Part shown: positions 6,657 to 22,886 of the stretch, piece after piece
How positions within the stretch are numbered: the first letter of the stretch is position 1
Layout: the number at the start of each line of letters is the position of its first letter
Assembly: GCA_013215375.1 (NCBI GenBank)
Contig: JABSRB010000033.1
Span: 1-64,000 of the forward strand
DNA length: 64,000 bases
Source of the DNA: Oceanospirillaceae bacterium
Lineage (GTDB): Bacteria; Pseudomonadota; Gammaproteobacteria; Pseudomonadales; Balneatricaceae
Reading direction: 5' to 3'
The notes under the pieces: generated by a model
The model's database searches: none
Told to the model about the DNA's origin: nothing
Seen by the model: the letters and a program-made list of their open reading frames with translations, nothing else
Position numbers and translations under genes: made by a program

Positions 6657-6758
6657 TGCGCAAGTAGTTCTTACAGCAAGGCAGCATTTCGCAGTAATTT
6701 CCAAATCGTTTTGGATTTTGTTATTATTGCGCACTTTATGGTTTTTAATTAGGCGGCG

Positions 6759-7787
6759 ATGATGGCAACGTTAAAAGATATAAGCGAGCATTTAAGCTTA
6801 TCGGTTACCCAGGTAAGTCGGGCGCTTAATGGTCATTCTGATGTTAGTGAAGCCACGAGAGTGCGGGTCATGGCAGCGGCAAAAGCGTTAAATTACACGC
6901 CCAATATAGCCGCGCGAAAGTTGGTGTCAGGTCGCTCTGGTATCGTAGGTCTAGTGACAACAGCGCCTAAAGGCGAGGCGCAAAGCAGTAATTATTTGGA
7001 AGTTGTGGTGGGGTTGTCTGCACAATTCACTAAGTTGGGTATGCAGTTTTTAGTGCATATTATCGATGAAAAAGACGATGTTGTGCTGGCCTATGAGCGC
7101 TTGATTAACAGCGGCACTATCGATGGTTTTGTGTTGGTTTCTGCGTTTGAGAAGGATACCCGTATCGCATTCTTGCAACAGCGAAAAGTCCCTTTTGTGG
7201 TGCATGGCTGCAGTAGCGACCAAGGTGAGTATCCGTTCTTTGATATCGATAATTACCAAGTGGCCTACCAACTTACCCAGCATTTAATTGAGCAGGGGCA
7301 TCGACGCATTGCCTTTATCAATGGGGTTTCAGGCACTGCATATGCCTGTGCACGGATGCGTGGCTATCAAGATGCGTTGAGTGCTGCGAGACTTCCTCTC
7401 TATTCACATTTAGTCTGTGCTGGTGAAATGGATGCGGCGTTAGGCACTATTGCCACAGTCGGCATGTTCGCGGACAACGAGATAAAACCTAGTGCAATAA
7501 TTGCCAATAATGTATTGATTGCCAGCGGCGTTTACTCGGCGCTCAGTGCACTTAATCTAAGTATTCCTGAAGACGTTTCGGTGGTGGCGCACGATGATGT
7601 ATTGCCAAGATTTAGAACATCTGCCTTTTACCCGGCACTAACAGTCACTCGCTCACCTTTGAGTGATAGCTGGGGGCCCCTGGCAAAATTTCTGAAAGGT
7701 ACTTTGGATGGGATTCCTGTTGCCAAGCTGCAGAAAACGGGGACTGTTGAGTTAATTCCGCGCGCTTCCTGCGCTGCTCCTCACTAA
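6759..7787 (+). CDS. thuR: LacI-family regulator of the thu (trehalose-type) operon
   Basis: 342 residues. N-terminal LacI helix-turn-helix: TLKDISEHLSLSVTQVSRALNG and the hinge helix NIAARKLVSGRSG. The remainder is a periplasmic-binding-protein-like effector domain. It sits directly upstream of a thuEFGK-thuA-thuB operon on the same strand, the same arrangement as ThuR of rhizobia, so it most likely represses that operon in the absence of the disaccharide. Two matching operators flank the thuE leader. CCAAATCGTTTTGG (6701-6714), an imperfect dyad centred on CG, may be an autoregulatory site. ATG at 6759 or 6762 may be the start (AGGCGG before them). Confidence 0.85.
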   Translation: MMATLKDISEHLSLSVTQVSRALNGHSDVSEATRVRVMAAAKALNYTPNIAARKLVSGRSGIVGLVTTAPKGEAQSSNYLEVVVGLSAQFTKLGMQFLVHIIDEKDDVVLAYERLINSGTIDGFVLVSAFEKDTRIAFLQQRKVPFVVHGCSSDQGEYPFFDIDNYQVAYQLTQHLIEQGHRRIAFINGVSGTAYACARMRGYQDALSAARLPLYSHLVCAGEMDAALGTIATVGMFADNEIKPSAIIANNVLIASGVYSALSALNLSIPEDVSVVAHDDVLPRFRTSAFYPALTVTRSPLSDSWGPLAKFLKGTLDGIPVAKLQKTGTVELIPRASCAAPH

Positions 7788-7803
7788 ATAATTGTACAAA
7801 ATT

Positions 7804-7832
7804 TTGACAGCTTAATATAGGCGTGGTATAAA
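7804..7832 (+). promoter_or_regulatory. Strong sigma-70 promoter of thuE
   Basis: TTGACA (7804-7809, perfect -35), 17-base spacer, TATAAA (7827-7832, 5/6 match to -10). The first LacI-type operator starts at the base after the -10 box, so bound repressor would cover the start site. Confidence 0.85.
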
Positions 7833-7909
7833 TCCGAAACGTTACGGAAATGCTTTGGTATTTCCGTTGACGATCCGCAAGAAAAGCATTTTTTCCGAAA
7901 CGTTACGGA
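7833..7909. promoter_or_regulatory. Twin LacI-type operators and nested inverted repeat in the thuE leader
   Basis: The quasi-palindrome TCCGAAACGTTACGGA occurs identically at 7833-7848 and 7894-7909, each centred on the CG step typical of LacI-family sites. Start-to-start spacing is 61 bp, close to six helical turns, which suits looping by a tetramer or co-binding. Just inside the operators lie perfect 9-bp arms AAATGCTTT (7848-7856) and AAAGCATTT (7883-7891). The whole segment is therefore a long imperfect inverted repeat that could also fold as a leader RNA hairpin. Confidence 0.85.
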
Positions 7910-7956
7910 TGTTTCTTAGCATCGGTAAGAACAACAATAAAATCAAGTGAGGGAAT

Positions 7957-9225
7957 ATGATTAAAAAGTTAAAACTTGGCGCGTTAACCGCGTTGGTCAG
8001 TGTCGCGATGAGTACTGCAGTACTAGCAGACAACATTCACTATGTTGCTGGTGTGACAGGGAATGCGCTAGAGACATTTAAAAATATCGTTAAGCCCTGG
8101 GAGAAAGAGACCGGACATACTGTCACTTTTGTACCTATGCCCGCTTCTACCACTGATCAATTTGGTCAGTACCGTCTGTGGTTGGCGGCTGGGAATGCTG
8201 ATATTGATCTTTATCAGACCGATGTTATATGGGCGCCGCAGCTCTCAGAGCAGTTTATCGACCTATCCGAGGTGGCTAAAGATTTAGCGCCTAAGCATTT
8301 TAAAGCGATCATTGAGTCGCAAACCGTGAATGGCAAGTTAGTCGCGTTACCCTTGTTTACTGACGCCCCTGCGCTTTACTACCGCAAAGATCTGTTAGCT
8401 AAGTACAATGTGGATGTGCCTAAAACGTGGGAGGAGTTAACGGTTGCCGCTAAAACTGTACAAGATGCAGAGCGCGCTGCAGGTAATGCTGATCTGTGGG
8501 GGTTTGTCTTTCAAGCGAATGCCTATGAAGGATTAACGTGCAACGCCTTAGAGTGGGTCAAATCTTTTGGTGGCGGGCAAATTGTCGAGCCAGATGGCAG
8601 TATCTCGATCAATAACAAAAAAGCCATTGCCGCGATAGAATTGGTAAAAACTTGGGTGGGCACTATCGCACCTGAAGGTGTACTTGCCTATCAGGAAGAG
8701 GAAGCGCGTGGAGTATGGCAAACAGGTAACGCGGTGTTTATGCGTAACTGGCCTTATGCCTATGGCTTAGGTAACAGCGATGACAGTGTAGTTAAAGGAA
8801 AATTTGGCGTAGTACCATTGCCAACCGGTGGCGGTAATGCGAACTCAGCAGCAACTTTAGGTGGCTGGAATGTCGCCGTCTCTAAATACTCTAAAAAGCA
8901 AGATGCAGCGATTTCCCTCGCGCTGTATTTAGCGGGTCCAGTAGCGCAAAAAGAGCGTGCTCTGATCGCTTCCAATTTACCGACTATAGTGTCTTTGTAC
9001 GATGATGCAGATATTGCCGCTCAGCAGCCTATCATTCCAAGATGGAAGGATGTGTTCTTGCAAGCGGTACCTCGCCCATCTGCGCCTACTAAAGCTAAGT
9101 ACAACGAAGTGTCCTCTAAGTTTTGGTCTGCTGTGCACAGCTCGCTTTCAGGCGATGGCAGCACCGCTGAAAACTTCGAAATTTTAGCGCTAGATCTTGA
9201 AGATCTAAAAGGTAGTGGCTGGTAA
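7957..9225 (+). CDS. thuE: ABC transporter substrate-binding protein, trehalose/maltose type (ThuE-like)
   Basis: 422 residues. An N-terminal signal peptide (~1-24, cleavage after AVLA) is followed by a family 1 extracellular solute-binding fold with TWEEL, GVWQTGNAVFMRNWPYAY and GGWNVAVSKYSKKQDAA, features of MalE/ThuE-type sugar binders. It would capture the disaccharide in the periplasm for ThuFGK. Its place directly after the promoter and before the permeases matches rhizobial thuEFGK. GTGAGGG precedes the ATG. A 14-bp hairpin after the stop may stabilise this part of the message so that the binding protein exceeds the permeases. Confidence 0.88.
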   Translation: MIKKLKLGALTALVSVAMSTAVLADNIHYVAGVTGNALETFKNIVKPWEKETGHTVTFVPMPASTTDQFGQYRLWLAAGNADIDLYQTDVIWAPQLSEQFIDLSEVAKDLAPKHFKAIIESQTVNGKLVALPLFTDAPALYYRKDLLAKYNVDVPKTWEELTVAAKTVQDAERAAGNADLWGFVFQANAYEGLTCNALEWVKSFGGGQIVEPDGSISINNKKAIAAIELVKTWVGTIAPEGVLAYQEEEARGVWQTGNAVFMRNWPYAYGLGNSDDSVVKGKFGVVPLPTGGGNANSAATLGGWNVAVSKYSKKQDAAISLALYLAGPVAQKERALIASNLPTIVSLYDDADIAAQQPIIPRWKDVFLQAVPRPSAPTKAKYNEVSSKFWSAVHSSLSGDGSTAENFEILALDLEDLKGSGW

Positions 9226-9238
9226 ATACAGCTTATCT

Positions 9239-9272
9239 GGTCTAGATGAGTGTCTCCCCACTCATCTAGACC
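9239..9272 (+). terminator. Strong intercistronic hairpin between thuE and thuF
   Basis: GGTCTAGATGAGTG (9239-9252) pairs perfectly with 9259-9272 around the 6-base loop TCTCCC. There is no immediate T tract (a T7 run comes only at 9292-9298), so it is more likely an RNA-stabilising or partial-termination element that raises thuE over thuF than a full stop. Confidence 0.7.
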
Positions 9273-9404
9273 CTCTGTGAGAAACGAATGATTTTTTTAC
9301 AGAGTCCTTTATTTTATCTCTTCTTTAACCTGTTTTTTTTACCTTGCTTGGGCGCAACCATGGCGGGTATCTACTGTGGGTAAAAGTTAGTAAGTGAGTC
9401 GCTA

Positions 9405-10376
9405 ATGTTTAATTTCAACTCGAGCAAAACCATGCTCGCAAGCTCTGAGCTGAGTTTGCAGCAACAGAGAGCACGTTCCGCATTTTGGTTTTTAGCACCG
9501 ATGCTGATCATGCTGTTTTGTGTCGCAGCTTGGCCGTTGCTGCGCTCAATATATTTCTCATTTACCGATACTAGTTTAACGGATTTATATGGGGGGCAGT
9601 GGGTAGGTTTTGATAATTACCTGTCCTATCGCGAGCTCTCCTCTGGGCGCATTCTTTGGCGCGGAACACTGGCAGACCCCGCATGGTGGAATGCGGTGTG
9701 GAATACGGTGAGATTTGCCTTTGTCTCAGTATCGATAGAAGCCATTTTAGGTGTATTGGTCGCGCTGTTACTCAACGCGGAGTTTAAAGGCCGCTCAATT
9801 GTGCGCGCCGCTATTCTTATCCCCTGGGCGATCCCAACGATTGTTTCAGCCAAGATGTGGGCGTGGATGCTCAACGATCAATTCGGCATCATTAATGACC
9901 TCTTCTTAACGCTGGGACTGATTGATCATAAAGTGGCTTGGACGGCTAATATTGATACGGCGATGATCTCAGTGTTGGTGGTTGATATATGGAAAACCAC
10001 CCCCTTTATGGCGCTGTTATGTCTGGCGGGACTGCAAATGGTACCTAAAGATATCTATGAGGCGGCAAAAGTGGACGGTGTGCATCCGATCAAAGTTTTT
10101 TTCAAAATTACCTTGCCGCTGATTCGTCCTACTTTGATGGTCGCTATTATCTTTAGAATGTTAGATGCGCTGCGTATTTTTGATTTGGTGTATGTATTAA
10201 CCCCCAATTCAAAAGCGACTAAAACCATGTCGGTGATTAGCCGTGAAAACCTGATCGAGTTTGATAAGTTTGCCTACGGGTCGGCACAATCTAGCTTGTT
10301 GTTTGCCATCATCGCCATCTTTGTCGCGCTCTATATCTGGTTGGGTAAATTAGATCTGAACGGGGAGAAAAACTAA
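9405..10376 (+). CDS. thuF: Trehalose-type ABC transporter permease (ThuF-like)
   Basis: 323 residues, about six membrane helices, binding-protein-dependent permease fold. The cytoplasmic EAA loop reads EAAKVDGVHPIKVFFKITLPLIRP and would contact the ATPase ThuK. N-terminal extension QQQRARSAFWFLAPMLIMLF is typical of MalF/ThuF-type subunits. The next gene overlaps it by one base (TAATG), so translation of the two permeases is coupled. Confidence 0.9.
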   Translation: MFNFNSSKTMLASSELSLQQQRARSAFWFLAPMLIMLFCVAAWPLLRSIYFSFTDTSLTDLYGGQWVGFDNYLSYRELSSGRILWRGTLADPAWWNAVWNTVRFAFVSVSIEAILGVLVALLLNAEFKGRSIVRAAILIPWAIPTIVSAKMWAWMLNDQFGIINDLFLTLGLIDHKVAWTANIDTAMISVLVVDIWKTTPFMALLCLAGLQMVPKDIYEAAKVDGVHPIKVFFKITLPLIRPTLMVAIIFRMLDALRIFDLVYVLTPNSKATKTMSVISRENLIEFDKFAYGSAQSSLLFAIIAIFVALYIWLGKLDLNGEKN

Positions 10377-11209
10377 TGGATTTACCGACAATAGTAAAAA
10401 GAACCGCGCTGTATTTTGCCGTGGCCGTGGTGGTAGTAATAGCGGTATTCCCTTTCTATTACGCCATTATCACCAGCTTTAAAACAGGTACACAGCTGTT
10501 TGAAGTGAACTACTTTCCAACCAGTTTTAATCTTGAAAACTACCAATCAGTATTGGGTGGGCGGCACTTCATCAGAAACATTGGCAACTCTATCTTTATT
10601 TCATTTGTCACTGTGGTCGCGGCATTGTTTCTGGCGATTACCGCCTCTTACGCACTGGCGAGAGTGAAGTTTAAAGGTCGCGGATTATTGTTGATGACTA
10701 TTTTGGGCATCTCAATGTTCCCGCAAATAGCGGTTCTGGCAGGGTTGTTTGAGTTGGTGAGGTTCCTCGGTATTTACAATACTCCCTGGGCGATGATTCT
10801 CTCGTACACCATTTTTACTTTGCCTTTTACCGTGTGGGTTTTAACCACTTTTATGCGAGGTTTACCGATAGAAATTGAAGAGGCGGCAATTGTGGATGGT
10901 GCTACTCCCTGGATAATAATCACTAAGGTATTTATGCCCTTGATGTGGCCCGCGTTAGTGACCACTGGCTTGCTTGCGTTCATTGGGGCTTGGAATGAAT
11001 TTCTATTTGCGCTGACTTTTACGGTGTCAGAAACAACCCGCACGGTACCTGTTGCCATCGCTTTAATTTCAGGGATGTCGCAGCACGAAACGCCTTGGGG
11101 AGCCATTATGGCAGCCTCTGTCATTGTGACGGTGCCCCTAGTGTTATTGGTGTTTGTCTTTCAGCGAAAAATTGTCTCGGGGCTCACCGCTGGCGGTGTT
11201 AAAGGTTAA
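10376..11209 (+). CDS. thuG: Trehalose-type ABC transporter permease (ThuG-like)
   Basis: 277 residues with six membrane helices and the EAA loop EAAIVDGATPWIIITKVFMPLMWP. The short N-terminus and C-terminal QRKIVSGLTAGGVKG are characteristic of MalG-type subunits. The start ATG overlaps the thuF stop by one base. A palindromic repeat element sits between this gene and thuK. Confidence 0.9.
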   Translation: MDLPTIVKRTALYFAVAVVVVIAVFPFYYAIITSFKTGTQLFEVNYFPTSFNLENYQSVLGGRHFIRNIGNSIFISFVTVVAALFLAITASYALARVKFKGRGLLLMTILGISMFPQIAVLAGLFELVRFLGIYNTPWAMILSYTIFTLPFTVWVLTTFMRGLPIEIEEAAIVDGATPWIIITKVFMPLMWPALVTTGLLAFIGAWNEFLFALTFTVSETTRTVPVAIALISGMSQHETPWGAIMAASVIVTVPLVLLVFVFQRKIVSGLTAGGVKG

Positions 11210-11254
11210 AGATTAAAAACTTATTGTTCTTGAACTTCTCAGTGTAGCGAAGCG

Positions 11255-11326
11255 CCTCTGTGTTCTCGGTGGTCGAATAGGTTTTAAAAACTTATTTCAC
11301 CACGCAGGGCATCGAGCACACAGAGG
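11255..11326. repeat. 72-bp imperfect inverted repeat element between thuG and thuK
   Basis: The sequence starts CCTCTGTGTTCTC and ends with its complement GCACACAGAGG, with a centre of GTTTTAAAAAC. The right arm carries about ten extra bases relative to the left. Similar accaCAGAGG/CCTCTGTGgt palindromes recur in intergenic regions of many proteobacteria as far as I recall. No second full copy is seen in this window. It may act as an intercistronic RNA structure. Confidence 0.7.
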
Positions 11327-11374
11327 AAAGGACTAAAGATTAGACGTTAAAGGCTATGGATAGGAATAATAAAA

Positions 11375-12388
11375 ATGGCAAATATTCAGTTTAAGAAATT
11401 ATCTAAGACCTATGACAACGTTAAGGTCATTAAATCCGTTGATCTGGAAATCAGATCGGGTGAATTCATGGTGTTTGTCGGGCCTTCAGGCTGTGGGAAA
11501 TCGACCTTGTTGCGCCTTATATCGGGCCTAGAAGAAATCACTAGCGGTGACATGTATATCGATGAGCAGCGGGTAAATAATGTTATCCCATCAAAACGTG
11601 GCATATCGATGGTGTTTCAATCTTATGCGCTCTACCCGCACATGAATGTTTACGACAACATGGCGTTTGGCTTGAAGTTGGCAAAGTCGAGTAAAGAGGA
11701 GATAGAACAAGCAGTACTTAACGCTGCGAAAATGCTGCAGCTAGATGAGCTGCTTGATCGTTTGCCCAAGCAGTTATCAGGTGGGCAACGTCAGCGTGTG
11801 GCTATTGGTCGCGCCATTGTGCGCAAACCCAAAGTTTTCCTGTTTGATGAACCGCTGTCTAATTTAGATGCAGCATTGCGGGTGCAAACACGCTTAGAAA
11901 TAGCCAAGTTACACCACGATATGAAAAACGTCACTATGGTGTATGTCACCCACGATCAAGTTGAGGCGATGACGCTGGCCGATAGAATTTGTGTATTACG
12001 CGATGGGCGCATAGAACAAGTAGGTACTCCCGCCGAGCTCTACGAGAGTCCTGCATCACTTTTTGTCGCGGGTTTTATCGGCTCACCACAAATGAATTTT
12101 ATTAACGGTGACATAGCGGCGCAGTACCAATGCCACACTTTGGGCGCGCGCCCTGAGCATATTGAGGTTGTTGCTGAAGAAGACGCCCTGTGGAGCGGCA
12201 CTGTTATCCACACTGAAGACTTAGGTTCAGACAACCATTTATTTGTAGAAATAGGCGCAAAGCAACCAGTGGTTGTCAGGTGCAACGGCAAGCTGAATAC
12301 GGACATTGGCACCAGAGTGCATCTGGCGCCTATGGCCTCTCAGTTACATTTTTTCGATGAAAACGAATTGCCAATTCGGCAATCATAA
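11375..12388 (+). CDS. thuK: ABC transporter ATPase (ThuK/MalK/UgpC type)
   Basis: 337 residues. Walker [11 protein letters not shown]-loop [12 protein letters not shown], signature [14 protein letters not shown], Walker [14 protein letters not shown] and the switch histidine in [17 protein letters not shown]-terminal TOBE/regulatory domain (~235-337) is present, shorter than in MalK (371). It powers disaccharide import with ThuEFG. AGGAATAATAAAA before the ATG gives a plausible ribosome site. It lies 165 bases after thuG, with a repeat element in between. Confidence 0.92.
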
Positions 12389-12400
12389 TAGGCATACAAG

Positions 12401-13186
12401 ATGAGCATAAAAACCATAGTTTGGGGCGAAAACGTCCACGATCAAGAAAACCAAGTCGTCGCAGATCTATACCCAAAGGGTATGCATACTTGCATCGCAG
12501 CAGGACTTAACTTAGATGAAAATATAGAGGCTAGCACTGCGGTGTTGCAAGATCCAGAACATGGCTTGAGCCAAGAGCGATTGGACAAGACAGATGTACT
12601 TTTATGGTGGGGCCATGCAGCGCACGGCGATGTTAGTGATGAAGTGGTAGAGCGCGTAGCCAATGCGGTGCTTGGCGGTATGGGGTTGATCGTTTTACAC
12701 AGCGGTCATTTTTCTAAAATATTCAAACGATTAATGGGCACTCCCTGTAATTTAACCTGGCGCGAGGCTGGTGAGCGTGAACGCTTGTGGGTAGCTTCAC
12801 GCAATCATCCCATCGTCAAAGGCATTCCCGACCATTTCGAGCTGGAATTCGAAGAGATGTATGGCGAGCCTTTTGGCATCCCAGAGCCTTTGGAAACCGT
12901 ATTGATTAGCTGGTTTCAAGGTGGTGAAGTATTTAGATCGGGTGTGACTTACAAGCGTGGCGCTGGCAACGTTTTTTACTTTAGACCAGGCCATGAAACT
13001 TACCCGACCTATCACGATGATAACGTTAAAACCATTTTGAAAAATGCGGTGAACTGGGCCTATAACGAACAGCCTAGGATACTTGATCCAAATGATGCGC
13101 CTAATGTTCCGGTCACAGAGGCATTGGAACCAATAGTAGAGCGCGGTCCAAAATTACATGCAGATGGCGAAGCCGGTTTTAAGTAG
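12401..13186 (+). CDS. thuA: ThuA-domain trehalose utilisation protein
   Basis: 261 residues, the length of rhizobial ThuA. It shows the class I glutamine-amidotransferase-like ThuA fold: [51 protein letters not shown] and [20 protein letters not shown]. ThuA and ThuB of rhizobia are required to use trehalose (and related disaccharides) by an oxidative route through a 3-keto derivative; the biochemical step of ThuA itself is less certain. It lies 12 bases after thuK and 24 before thuB, consistent with one transcript. Confidence 0.92.
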
Positions 13187-13210
13187 CGGCTTTTTAGAGC
13201 AAGGGGAATT

Positions 13211-14254
13211 ATGAAAAATACACAACCAATAGTAAGGCTCGCCATCATAGGGACGGGCAGTATGGGTGGTATGCATGCAAAGTCTTACACTGCTATAGAA
13301 AATGCCACACTGGTGGCGGCAGTGGACACCAATGAAACTCAACTGATTGAGTTTTGTAACAAACACGATATAGAGCATCGTTTTACCTCATTACAAGCGT
13401 TGCTTGACTGGAATGAATTTGATGCGGTGTCTAATGTGACACCGGATCAAGTTCATCACAGGACCAGCTTACAAGTGATAGCCGCTAACAAACATATTTT
13501 GTGTGAAAAACCACTGGCGGTAAACTATCAAGATGCCCGTGAAATGGCTGATGCTGCAGCAGGTGCGGGTGTCATCAATATGGTGAATTTGAGTTATCGG
13601 AATGTGGCCTCGATTCAAAAAGCGGCACAGATGGTCGCTGATGGCTGCATAGGTCAGATCAAGCACTTTGAAGCATCCTATTTACAATCATGGTTAACCC
13701 AGCCTGCTTGGGGTGATTGGAAGTCACAAAGTCAGTGGCTGTGGCGTTTATCGTCAGAGCATGGTTCTAAAGGCGTGCTGGGTGATGTGGGGATTCACAT
13801 TATTGATTTTGTCACCTTTGTCGCCAATCAGATGCCAAAGAGCCTCTCTTGTCAGCTACATACCTTTAACAAGGCAGAGGACGATAAAATTGGCGAGTAC
13901 CCACTAGATGCCAACGATAGCTTTGTGATGCATATGCAGTTGGATAATGATGCGTTGGGAGTGGTGAGCGCCACCCGTTTTGCCTCGGGTCATCACAACG
14001 ATTTACGGCTGCGTATATACGGTGATAAAGGCGGTTTGGAAGTGTCTTTCGAAAACAGTACCAGCCGCTTAAGAGCTTGTCTTGAAAAAGATCTTGAGAG
14101 TGCTACTTGGCATGAGGTGGAATGTGCGGATGTGGATACTATCTATCAAAAGTTTATAGATGCCATATTATTAAATGAGCAAGCGCTGCCCAATTTTGAG
14201 CGCGGAGCACAGTTGCAACAATTGCTCGATACCGCCATGGGTGAGCATAAATAA
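13211..14254 (+). CDS. thuB: ThuB-like Gfo/Idh/MocA oxidoreductase
   Basis: 347 residues. Rossmann loop IIGTGSMGGMHA, then HILCEKPLAVNY, the EKP motif of the family, and DVGIHIIDF, whose DxGxHxxD histidine is the usual catalytic residue. In known thu loci ThuB is the NAD(P)-dependent oxidoreductase that acts with ThuA on imported trehalose-type sugars. AAGGGG precedes the ATG. Last gene of the thu operon; it ends 17 bases from a convergent gene with no obvious terminator. Confidence 0.88.
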   Translation: MKNTQPIVRLAIIGTGSMGGMHAKSYTAIENATLVAAVDTNETQLIEFCNKHDIEHRFTSLQALLDWNEFDAVSNVTPDQVHHRTSLQVIAANKHILCEKPLAVNYQDAREMADAAAGAGVINMVNLSYRNVASIQKAAQMVADGCIGQIKHFEASYLQSWLTQPAWGDWKSQSQWLWRLSSEHGSKGVLGDVGIHIIDFVTFVANQMPKSLSCQLHTFNKAEDDKIGEYPLDANDSFVMHMQLDNDALGVVSATRFASGHHNDLRLRIYGDKGGLEVSFENSTSRLRACLEKDLESATWHEVECADVDTIYQKFIDAILLNEQALPNFERGAQLQQLLDTAMGEHK

Positions 14255-21827: not shown

Positions 21828-22886
21828 ATGAAAAACATACTCTCTAAACTGACCGTGGTGTCCGTATTGTCAGCATCATTGCTGGTGACTTCTATGCAGG
21901 CTGCTGCGCAAAAAACGATTCGCTTTGGCCATGATAACAAAGCAGATGTGATGGAGAACCCAGCGCATGCCTTCGCCGGTGTTTTCAAAAATATCGTTGA
22001 GTCTGCCACTAACGGTGAGATTAAAGTTCAAATATACCCGAGTAACCAGTTGGGCAGTGCCAAAGAGCACGTGCAGCAAGTTAAGGATGGCATTATTCAA
22101 GCGACTTTGACTTCTACTGGCGCACTGTCTTCGTATTACCCGCGTATTGGCGTATTAGATCTAGCCTTTGCCTTTAATCACAATGCGGCGACTTACGATG
22201 TATTTGATGGCGAGTTCGGTGCAACCTTAGCGAAGGATATCAATAAATCAGTGGATGGCGTGAAAGTGCTAGGCTTCCCTGATACTGGTGGGTTCTTCTC
22301 TATCACTAACTCCGTGAGAGCGATTAATACACTGGAAGACTTCAAAGGTATTCGTATCCGTACCATGACTTTGCCTTCCCATCAAAAAATCATTCAAGCG
22401 CTTGGTGGCGAAGCTTATCCACTAGCCTGGGGCGAAGTTTACTCATCGCTACAGACAGGTGTTATCGATGGTCAAATGAATCCAATACCCACTGTGTCGT
22501 TTGCCAAATTTAACGAAGTTCAAGAATACCTAACGCTGACTAACCACTTGTTTGCTCCCTATACTTTTATGCTGAATGACAAGTTTTATGAAAGCTTAAC
22601 CGAGCAAGAGCAGCAAATTATTCGCTATGCCACTCACTCGGGCATCATTGCCAGCCGCGGTATTGCCAGAGCGATAGAAGCTTCTGAAGATCGTGGTTTA
22701 GCAGGTTTAGCTAAGAAAATGAAGGTGAATTCTATCTCTGCCAAAGAGCGTAGCAGATTCAAAGCGGCTGCTGAGCCAGCGATTTTATCTCATGTTAAAG
22801 AGACATTAGGGGCAGAGGGCGTTGAGTTATTGAATTTGTTCATCTCTGAAGTAGAGAAAGCGAACAACAATACTTATTTGAGATAA
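21828..22886 (+). CDS. TRAP transporter substrate-binding protein (DctP family)
   Basis: 352 residues, signal peptide ~1-27 (ending AAAQ). DctP features: FGHDNK near the N-terminus, YPSNQLGSAKEHVQQVKDG, and FKGIRIRTMTLPSHQKIIQALGG, where the arginine normally forms a salt bridge with a substrate carboxylate; then PLAWGEVYSSLQTGVIDGQMNP. The ligand is thus probably an organic or sugar acid. Together with kdgK, MlrC and the PLP lyase downstream, an amino-sugar acid is a reasonable guess. The gene lies 41 bases after dctM; a hairpin follows. Confidence 0.92.
   Translation: MKNILSKLTVVSVLSASLLVTSMQAAAQKTIRFGHDNKADVMENPAHAFAGVFKNIVESATNGEIKVQIYPSNQLGSAKEHVQQVKDGIIQATLTSTGALSSYYPRIGVLDLAFAFNHNAATYDVFDGEFGATLAKDINKSVDGVKVLGFPDTGGFFSITNSVRAINTLEDFKGIRIRTMTLPSHQKIIQALGGEAYPLAWGEVYSSLQTGVIDGQMNPIPTVSFAKFNEVQEYLTLTNHLFAPYTFMLNDKFYESLTEQEQQIIRYATHSGIIASRGIARAIEASEDRGLAGLAKKMKVNSISAKERSRFKAAAEPAILSHVKETLGAEGVELLNLFISEVEKANNNTYLR

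Follow-up and report, generated by a model that had tools for sequence, protein, structure and literature searches.

Upstream of a sugar-transport operon in the window (the whole 64,000-nucleotide stretch of DNA analysed here), one 16-bp near-palindrome occurs twice, and the locus raises the question of what this pair does. The original prediction read the two copies as LacI-type operators which together form a long inverted repeat able to loop the DNA and to fold the leader RNA. The elements concerned are the following.

7804 to 7809, forward strand: −35 hexamer TTGACA, read from the sequence.
7827 to 7832, forward strand: −10 hexamer TATAAA, with TGG immediately 5′, adjoining O1 after a 17-bp spacer from the −35 hexamer.
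7833 to 7848, no strand assigned: O1, candidate main operator TCCGAAACGTTACGGA, whose centre probably coincides with the transcription start as placed from the −10 hexamer.
7894 to 7909, no strand assigned: O2, candidate second operator, the same 16-mer as O1, within the presumed transcribed leader.
6700 to 6715, no strand assigned: O3, candidate third operator, TCCAAATCGTTTTGGA, in front of the gene for the LacI-family regulator, where it would serve autoregulation.
6759 to 7787, forward strand: LacI-family regulator, ThuR-like, 342 amino acids, with HTH and sugar-binding domains (Pfam PF00356, PF13377).

The predicted identity of the two sites is exact: O2 repeats O1 61 bp further on (start to start, with 45 bp in between), and in each copy seven of the eight position pairs are complementary. 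The near-consensus promoter TTGACA-17-TATAAA (7804–7832) ends where O1 begins, as had been proposed; it was omitted by the consensus promoter scan because that scan demands T at position 6 of the −10 hexamer. With up to three mismatches allowed, the consensus operator occurs three times in the window against 0.16 expected, a number reached by none of 100 shuffles. Exact copies of CCGAAACGTTWCGG in the complete 5.0-Mb genome are confined to O1 and O2, and the mismatch-free sites are O1, O2 and O3 only, the last of these being absent from the original prediction. Taking into account the even palindrome with central CG, the position near a promoter and the conservation together with the regulator, O1 and O2 are very probably real operators.

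Further candidates were set aside. The sole place with one mismatch besides O1 and O2 (G000:C16:73585) is attributable to chance, the reversed-pattern control giving three hits, and the genome sites with two mismatches (12 and 11) are exceeded by the control (36 and 44). An extra operator within the regulator coding region, ACGTTTCGG at 7573–7581, is a half-site seen by eye and absent from the three-mismatch scan. Separately, TCCAAAGCGCTTTGGA and a near variant of it lie at G000:C89:19759-19774 and 22376-22391 of the same genome, possibly as sites of another LacI-family regulator.

The genes that follow O2, named in part from their context, define the type of operon.

7957 to 9225, forward strand: thuE-like sugar-binding protein of an ABC transporter (Pfam SBP_bac_1), up to 80% identical to alphaproteobacterial proteins among the best 80 of 569 loci.
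9405 to 11209, forward strand: two sugar ABC permeases, named thuF and thuG from context, ordered as in L111 and L112.
11375 to 12388, forward strand: ABC ATPase, named thuK from context, ordered as in L111 and L112.
12401 to 13186, forward strand: ThuA-domain protein (Pfam PF06283).
13211 to 14254, forward strand: Gfo/Idh/MocA oxidoreductase, thuB-like by context (Pfam PF01408, PF22725, PF02894).

The ABC transporter genes are succeeded by those for the ThuA-domain and Gfo/Idh proteins, an order also seen in L111 and L112, and together they correspond to a thuEFGKAB operon. In the Rhizobiales, ThuR and thuEFGKAB combine an ABC transporter with ThuA-domain and Gfo/Idh genes under LacI-family control, and the gene set of the window resembles that system in all these components. 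The regulator itself belongs to the LacI-family transcription factors, with scores of 46.2 bits for PF00356 (cut-off 27) and 78.3 bits for PF13377 (cut-off 26.5).

The block is likely of foreign origin. The binding protein was absent, at E values up to 1e-60, from all six same-genus genomes searched, and was present in 18 of 193 genomes, that of the window included, with 41–49% identity outside the window. Among the 20 matches outside the window in these first 193 genomes, two have a distant LacI relative nearby (27–29% identical) and none carries a window-type operator in the stretch scanned; these 20 loci serve solely to suggest that the operon is foreign. A relative of the binding protein with 77% identity, in the same gene order, resides on a mobilizable plasmid of Qingshengfaniella, and the GC content of the operon (45.5–48.0%) is slightly higher than that of its two neighbours (42.0 and 42.5%). 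Collectively, these comparisons indicate that the lacI-thuEFGKAB block (6759–14254) was likely acquired horizontally, its closest listed relatives being alphaproteobacterial.

The proposed LacI-type operators at the promoter are strongly supported by comparison with these relatives. When genome contigs were searched with the ThuE-like protein, 569 loci matched, and the best 80 of them, mostly alphaproteobacterial, were used. A same-direction LacI relative, about 46–63% identical, precedes thuE in 27 of these best 80 loci, and in all 27 TCCGAAACGTTTCGGA or a near variant lies directly after a TTGA[CT] promoter. After the addition of 22 loci (two plasmid records and 20 from whole genomes, 18 of 394 and 2 of 6 genomes matching), the window and 102 loci were scored together; 53 were dropped for a LacI identity below 44% or no LacI match, L121 and L130 for having no thuE within 700 bp, and eight as duplicates of the intergenic stretch. 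In the resulting 40 non-redundant loci (the window and 39 relatives), at a threshold of at least 12 of 16 matches, a thuE-side site of this type is present in every one, and a lacI-side site in 31. In 39 of the 40 loci, TTGA[CT] precedes the first thuE-side site by 29–34 bp, the weak upstream site of L033 being passed over in this count; the exception is L123, with a pair of sites of which the first runs into the −35 region and the other lies 33 bp after TTGAC. On the lacI side, a 16-mer identical to O3 is found upstream of lacI in L025 and L026, implying autoregulation of the LacI-family gene through O3.

The regulon looks local, since the exact sites are absent elsewhere in the genome of the window and the matches to TCCGAAACGTTNNGG in relatives, which were obtained in four of five genomes with two or three strand-hits each, are confined to the thu locus with one exception (G558:C6:4590). 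The fifth genome, that of L088, whose own site is ACCGAAACGTTTCGGT, contains no match to TCCGAAACGTTNNGG.

The sites differ along with the recognition region of the regulator. It reads S-[VI]-TQVSR in the nine same-direction regulators compared, that of the window included, with CCGAAACG as site sequence, versus SQTTVSR in the six divergent regulators compared, with mainly CAAAGCG; where a site was found, the loci of the latter are mainly of the AAAGCGCTTT type. Divergent LacI proteins, about 31–37% identical, accompany L028, L052, L062 and others, many with AAAGCGCTTT sites resembling the printed AglR motif. Eight Rhodobacteraceae-type loci (L030, L040, L043, L046, L048, L049, L053 and L055) carry a second LacI-type palindrome around AAAGCGCTTTGG, located within the promoter spacer some 26 bp ahead of the operator, which is perhaps the site of a second regulator.

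Compared with described systems, the arrangement is that of a local sugar regulon. According to PMC4052901, LacI-family sites are even palindromes with central CG, and more than 75% of them lie 140–30 bp before the start codon; about 20% of operons carry tandem sites, and of the local regulators more than three quarters control their own genes. The window shares the even 16-bp palindrome, the central CG, the promoter-proximal site, a second site and apparent autoregulation with the local sugar regulons in that paper, but differs from them in its 61-bp spacing (published distances cluster at 13, 22 and 32 bp) and in TCCGAAACGTTTCGGA, which departs from the printed ThuR and AglR motifs (PMC4052901). 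As printed, the ThuR and AglR regulons have a divergent regulator with AAAnCGnTTT and AAAGCGCTTT sites, and ThuR of the Rhizobiales is a divergent gene with motif natcnAAAnCGnTTTngatt, whereas the regulator gene of the window is codirectional and its site is TCCGAAACGTTACGGA. For Ensifer aridi, PMC8877191 likewise predicts two ThuR sites, located upstream of thuR and aglE. Because the printed ThuR and AglR motifs differ from that of the window, the regulator is best called ThuR-like by context, and not ThuR by descent. Written as 14 letters (CCGAAACGTTTCGG), the motif gave no match in the literature searched, RegPrecise lying outside that search. The comparison points to a three-operator local regulon and to TCCGAAACGTTTCGGA as the probable consensus of a codirectional thu regulator clade, unlike the printed rhizobial ThuR motif.

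It is thus highly probable that a thu-type operon is controlled here by its own LacI-family repressor, in what looks like ordinary LacI-type sugar regulation. The sites, the match to a promoter, the conservation and the scarcity of exact sites elsewhere are direct observations, while binding, ligand, start site, oligomeric state and mode of block are deduced. In the absence of inducer, repressor dimers on O1, covering the start just downstream of the −10 hexamer, would block RNA polymerase; a second dimer on O2, 61 bp further on in the leader, could strengthen repression either as a second obstacle, to elongation, or through weak cooperativity; and O3, before the repressor gene, would provide autoregulation. 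The repressor would be released by a sugar, for which trehalose or a related disaccharide is the probable candidate.

It is more difficult to assign a function to O2. Two thuE-side sites occur in eight of the 40 loci, with spacings of 61 bp in the window, 32 bp in L039, L044 and L129, 33 bp in L056, 31 bp in L120, 27 bp in L123 and 49 bp in L033, where the first member is the weak upstream site; six of the seven pairs in relatives thus fall within 27–33 bp. Pairs on the lacI side are spaced by 31–32 bp (L058, L088, L120, L124 and L128), by 27 bp in L122 and, weakly, by 24 bp in L033, and L088 has a further weak site 74 bp upstream on that side. In PMC4052901, the intersite distances of the LacI family have their maxima at 13, 22 and 32 bp, with more than one site in about 20% of operons. 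A 61-bp pair is absent from all 39 relatives, and among 369 genomes of the class of the window a similar pair with a gap of 30–60 bp appears in one, namely its own. A second site is therefore ordinary for the family, and the 61-bp spacing is unusual, being found only in the window. A relic middle operator at +31 (start 7864), with 8 of 16 matches, was rejected as background: of the 33 relatives that lack a second site downstream, 8 likewise score at least 8 between offsets +29 and +34. Over the same offsets a weak second site scores 9 and 10 of 16 in the closest relatives, L025 and L026, and 10 in L058.

O2 could also be a neutral recent copy, produced by duplication or conversion and of little effect, with O1 alone regulating. 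The single thuE-side site in 32 of the 40 loci, at the threshold used, agrees with this, as does the A at position 12, which is common to O1 and O2, occurs in none of the 47 thuE-side sites of relatives and recurs in one lacI-side site of L088. Nevertheless, a perfect second 16-mer stands in the presumed leader and seven other loci, one of them weakly, have second thuE-side sites, so that a neutral O2 appears rather unlikely. Because the position-12 A is missing from the thuE-side sites of relatives, conservation is no guide to what O2 does.

The proposed DNA loop, in which O1 and O2 would be bridged across 61 bp by a tetramer or by a pair of dimers linked by a further protein, is compatible with two identical strong sites. 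The lac and gal systems of Escherichia coli have a main operator at the start region and an auxiliary one; the window is like them in this respect, but its auxiliary site lies only 61 bp downstream and a LacI-type tetramer tail is not seen. Residues 3–335 of the 342-residue regulator match residues 1–323 of the 340 of PurR, and its Lac repressor match ends at residue 290 of 360, which leaves no room for such a tail. The LacI tail lies beyond the stretch that the regulator matches, and nothing in the protein corresponds to it. In one reporter study, LacI, AraC and GalR are named as loopers demonstrated by experiment, a 55-bp distance between operators is said to be reportedly amenable to looping for LacI, and the distal sites of PurR added no significant repression to the proximal one (PMC7804116). 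The phase is likewise unfavourable, 61 bp corresponding to 5.81 turns at 10.5 bp per turn and 5.55 at 11. With LacI, repression by looping is strongest near 133 and 144 bp, the period being 11 bp (PMC8501960), and our extrapolation of these optima to 56 and 67 bp leaves 61 in between, with a geometry that may differ for another protein. Given the protein length, the spacing phase and the lack of a 61-bp pair in the relatives, looping is the less likely mode and is not favoured; we regard it as quite unlikely. Separate dimers on the two operators are the most likely mode of repression.

The inverted repeat adds two inner arms to the operators.

7848 to 7856, no strand assigned: perfect 9-bp inner arm AAATGCTTT, whose first A is the end of O1.
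7883 to 7891, no strand assigned: perfect 9-bp inner arm AAAGCATTT.

These arms lie just inside the operators, as described originally. The numbers given for a single imperfect inverted repeat at 7833–7909 are right as well, but the unity of the repeat is less clear: the 19-nt operator arms (7832–7850 and 7892–7910) are centred at 7871 and the 9-bp arms at 7869.5, and because the two sets centre apart the long repeat can pair only with a bulge of 3 nt. It has little standing as a separate entity, being mostly expected from two near-palindromic operators and having no 61-bp counterpart in the 39 relatives; it appears to be largely a by-product of two near-palindromes close together. Inner arms like these seldom arise by chance, and the two-operator account leaves them unexplained: among 5000 dinucleotide-shuffled versions of the spacer, perfect arms of at least 8 bp close to both operators appear in 0.12%, and of at least 7 bp in 0.74%, in a test devised post hoc. 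A simple inverted copy of O1 and its flank was rejected as the source of O2, since O1 and O2 are identical in direct orientation, the off-palindrome letter included. No single event explains O2 and the inner arms, because the arms fit an inversion but the operators are directly identical. AAATGCTTTG follows O1 in L056 as in the window, and judged from this one relative the AAATGCTTTG arm looks inherited and the other arm newer.

At the RNA level, the long hairpin competes with a local element that the original prediction did not include.

7840 to 7873, forward strand: competing local inverted repeat, predicted to form a 5′ leader hairpin.

From the −10 position, transcription probably starts at about 7838–7840, inside O1. 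For these starts, the modelled probability of the local hairpin is 0.978–0.9996 and that of the long form 0.0003–0.022, and the structure with the short 5′ hairpin is computed to be 3.6 to 6.9 kcal/mol better than the long form; were transcription to begin at 7833, immediately behind the −10 hexamer, the long form would reach 0.94 (end 7910) or 0.32 (end 7956) in the model. A long hairpin in the transcript upstream of thuE is therefore disfavoured, the start probably lying inside O1 and the short hairpin then being the better one in the model.

Control by the leader RNA, in which the folded transcript, through the long hairpin in the earlier version, would modulate thuE stability or translation, draws on folding energies. 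The strand 7832–7910 folds better than all 200 shuffles (z −3.44), and the transcripts 7838–7960 (z −2.36, 2 of 200 shuffles as good) and 7840–7960 (z −2.01, 8 of 200) also fold better than most, through the local hairpin. Over the first 75 nt, z is −2.27 in the window and ranges in 27 relatives from −3.45 (L056) to +1.78 (L033), falling below −2 in only L056 and L031 (−2.47). Against such control, besides the low probability of the long form, no shape common to the first 75 nt of these 27 relatives was seen by eye, and none of the five Rfam matches comes near its gathering score. Regulation by the folded leader is accordingly extremely unlikely. In L056, whose two operators lie 33 bp apart, the hairpin pairs the right half of the first with the left half of the second, which shows that tandem palindromic operators can bring hairpins of this kind with them at no extra cost; the apparent long hairpin of the window can likewise be a by-product of two operators.

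Some leader structure other than the long hairpin is plausible from the models. No match was found in the literature searched for LacI operators combined with leader hairpins. It is conceivable, if very unlikely, that the right half of O1 and the spacer are under a double constraint, as an operator array of about two 30-bp steps and as a short 5′ hairpin protecting or tuning the thuE message, with O2 as an elongation roadblock, the whole having arisen in this lineage after transfer of the operon.
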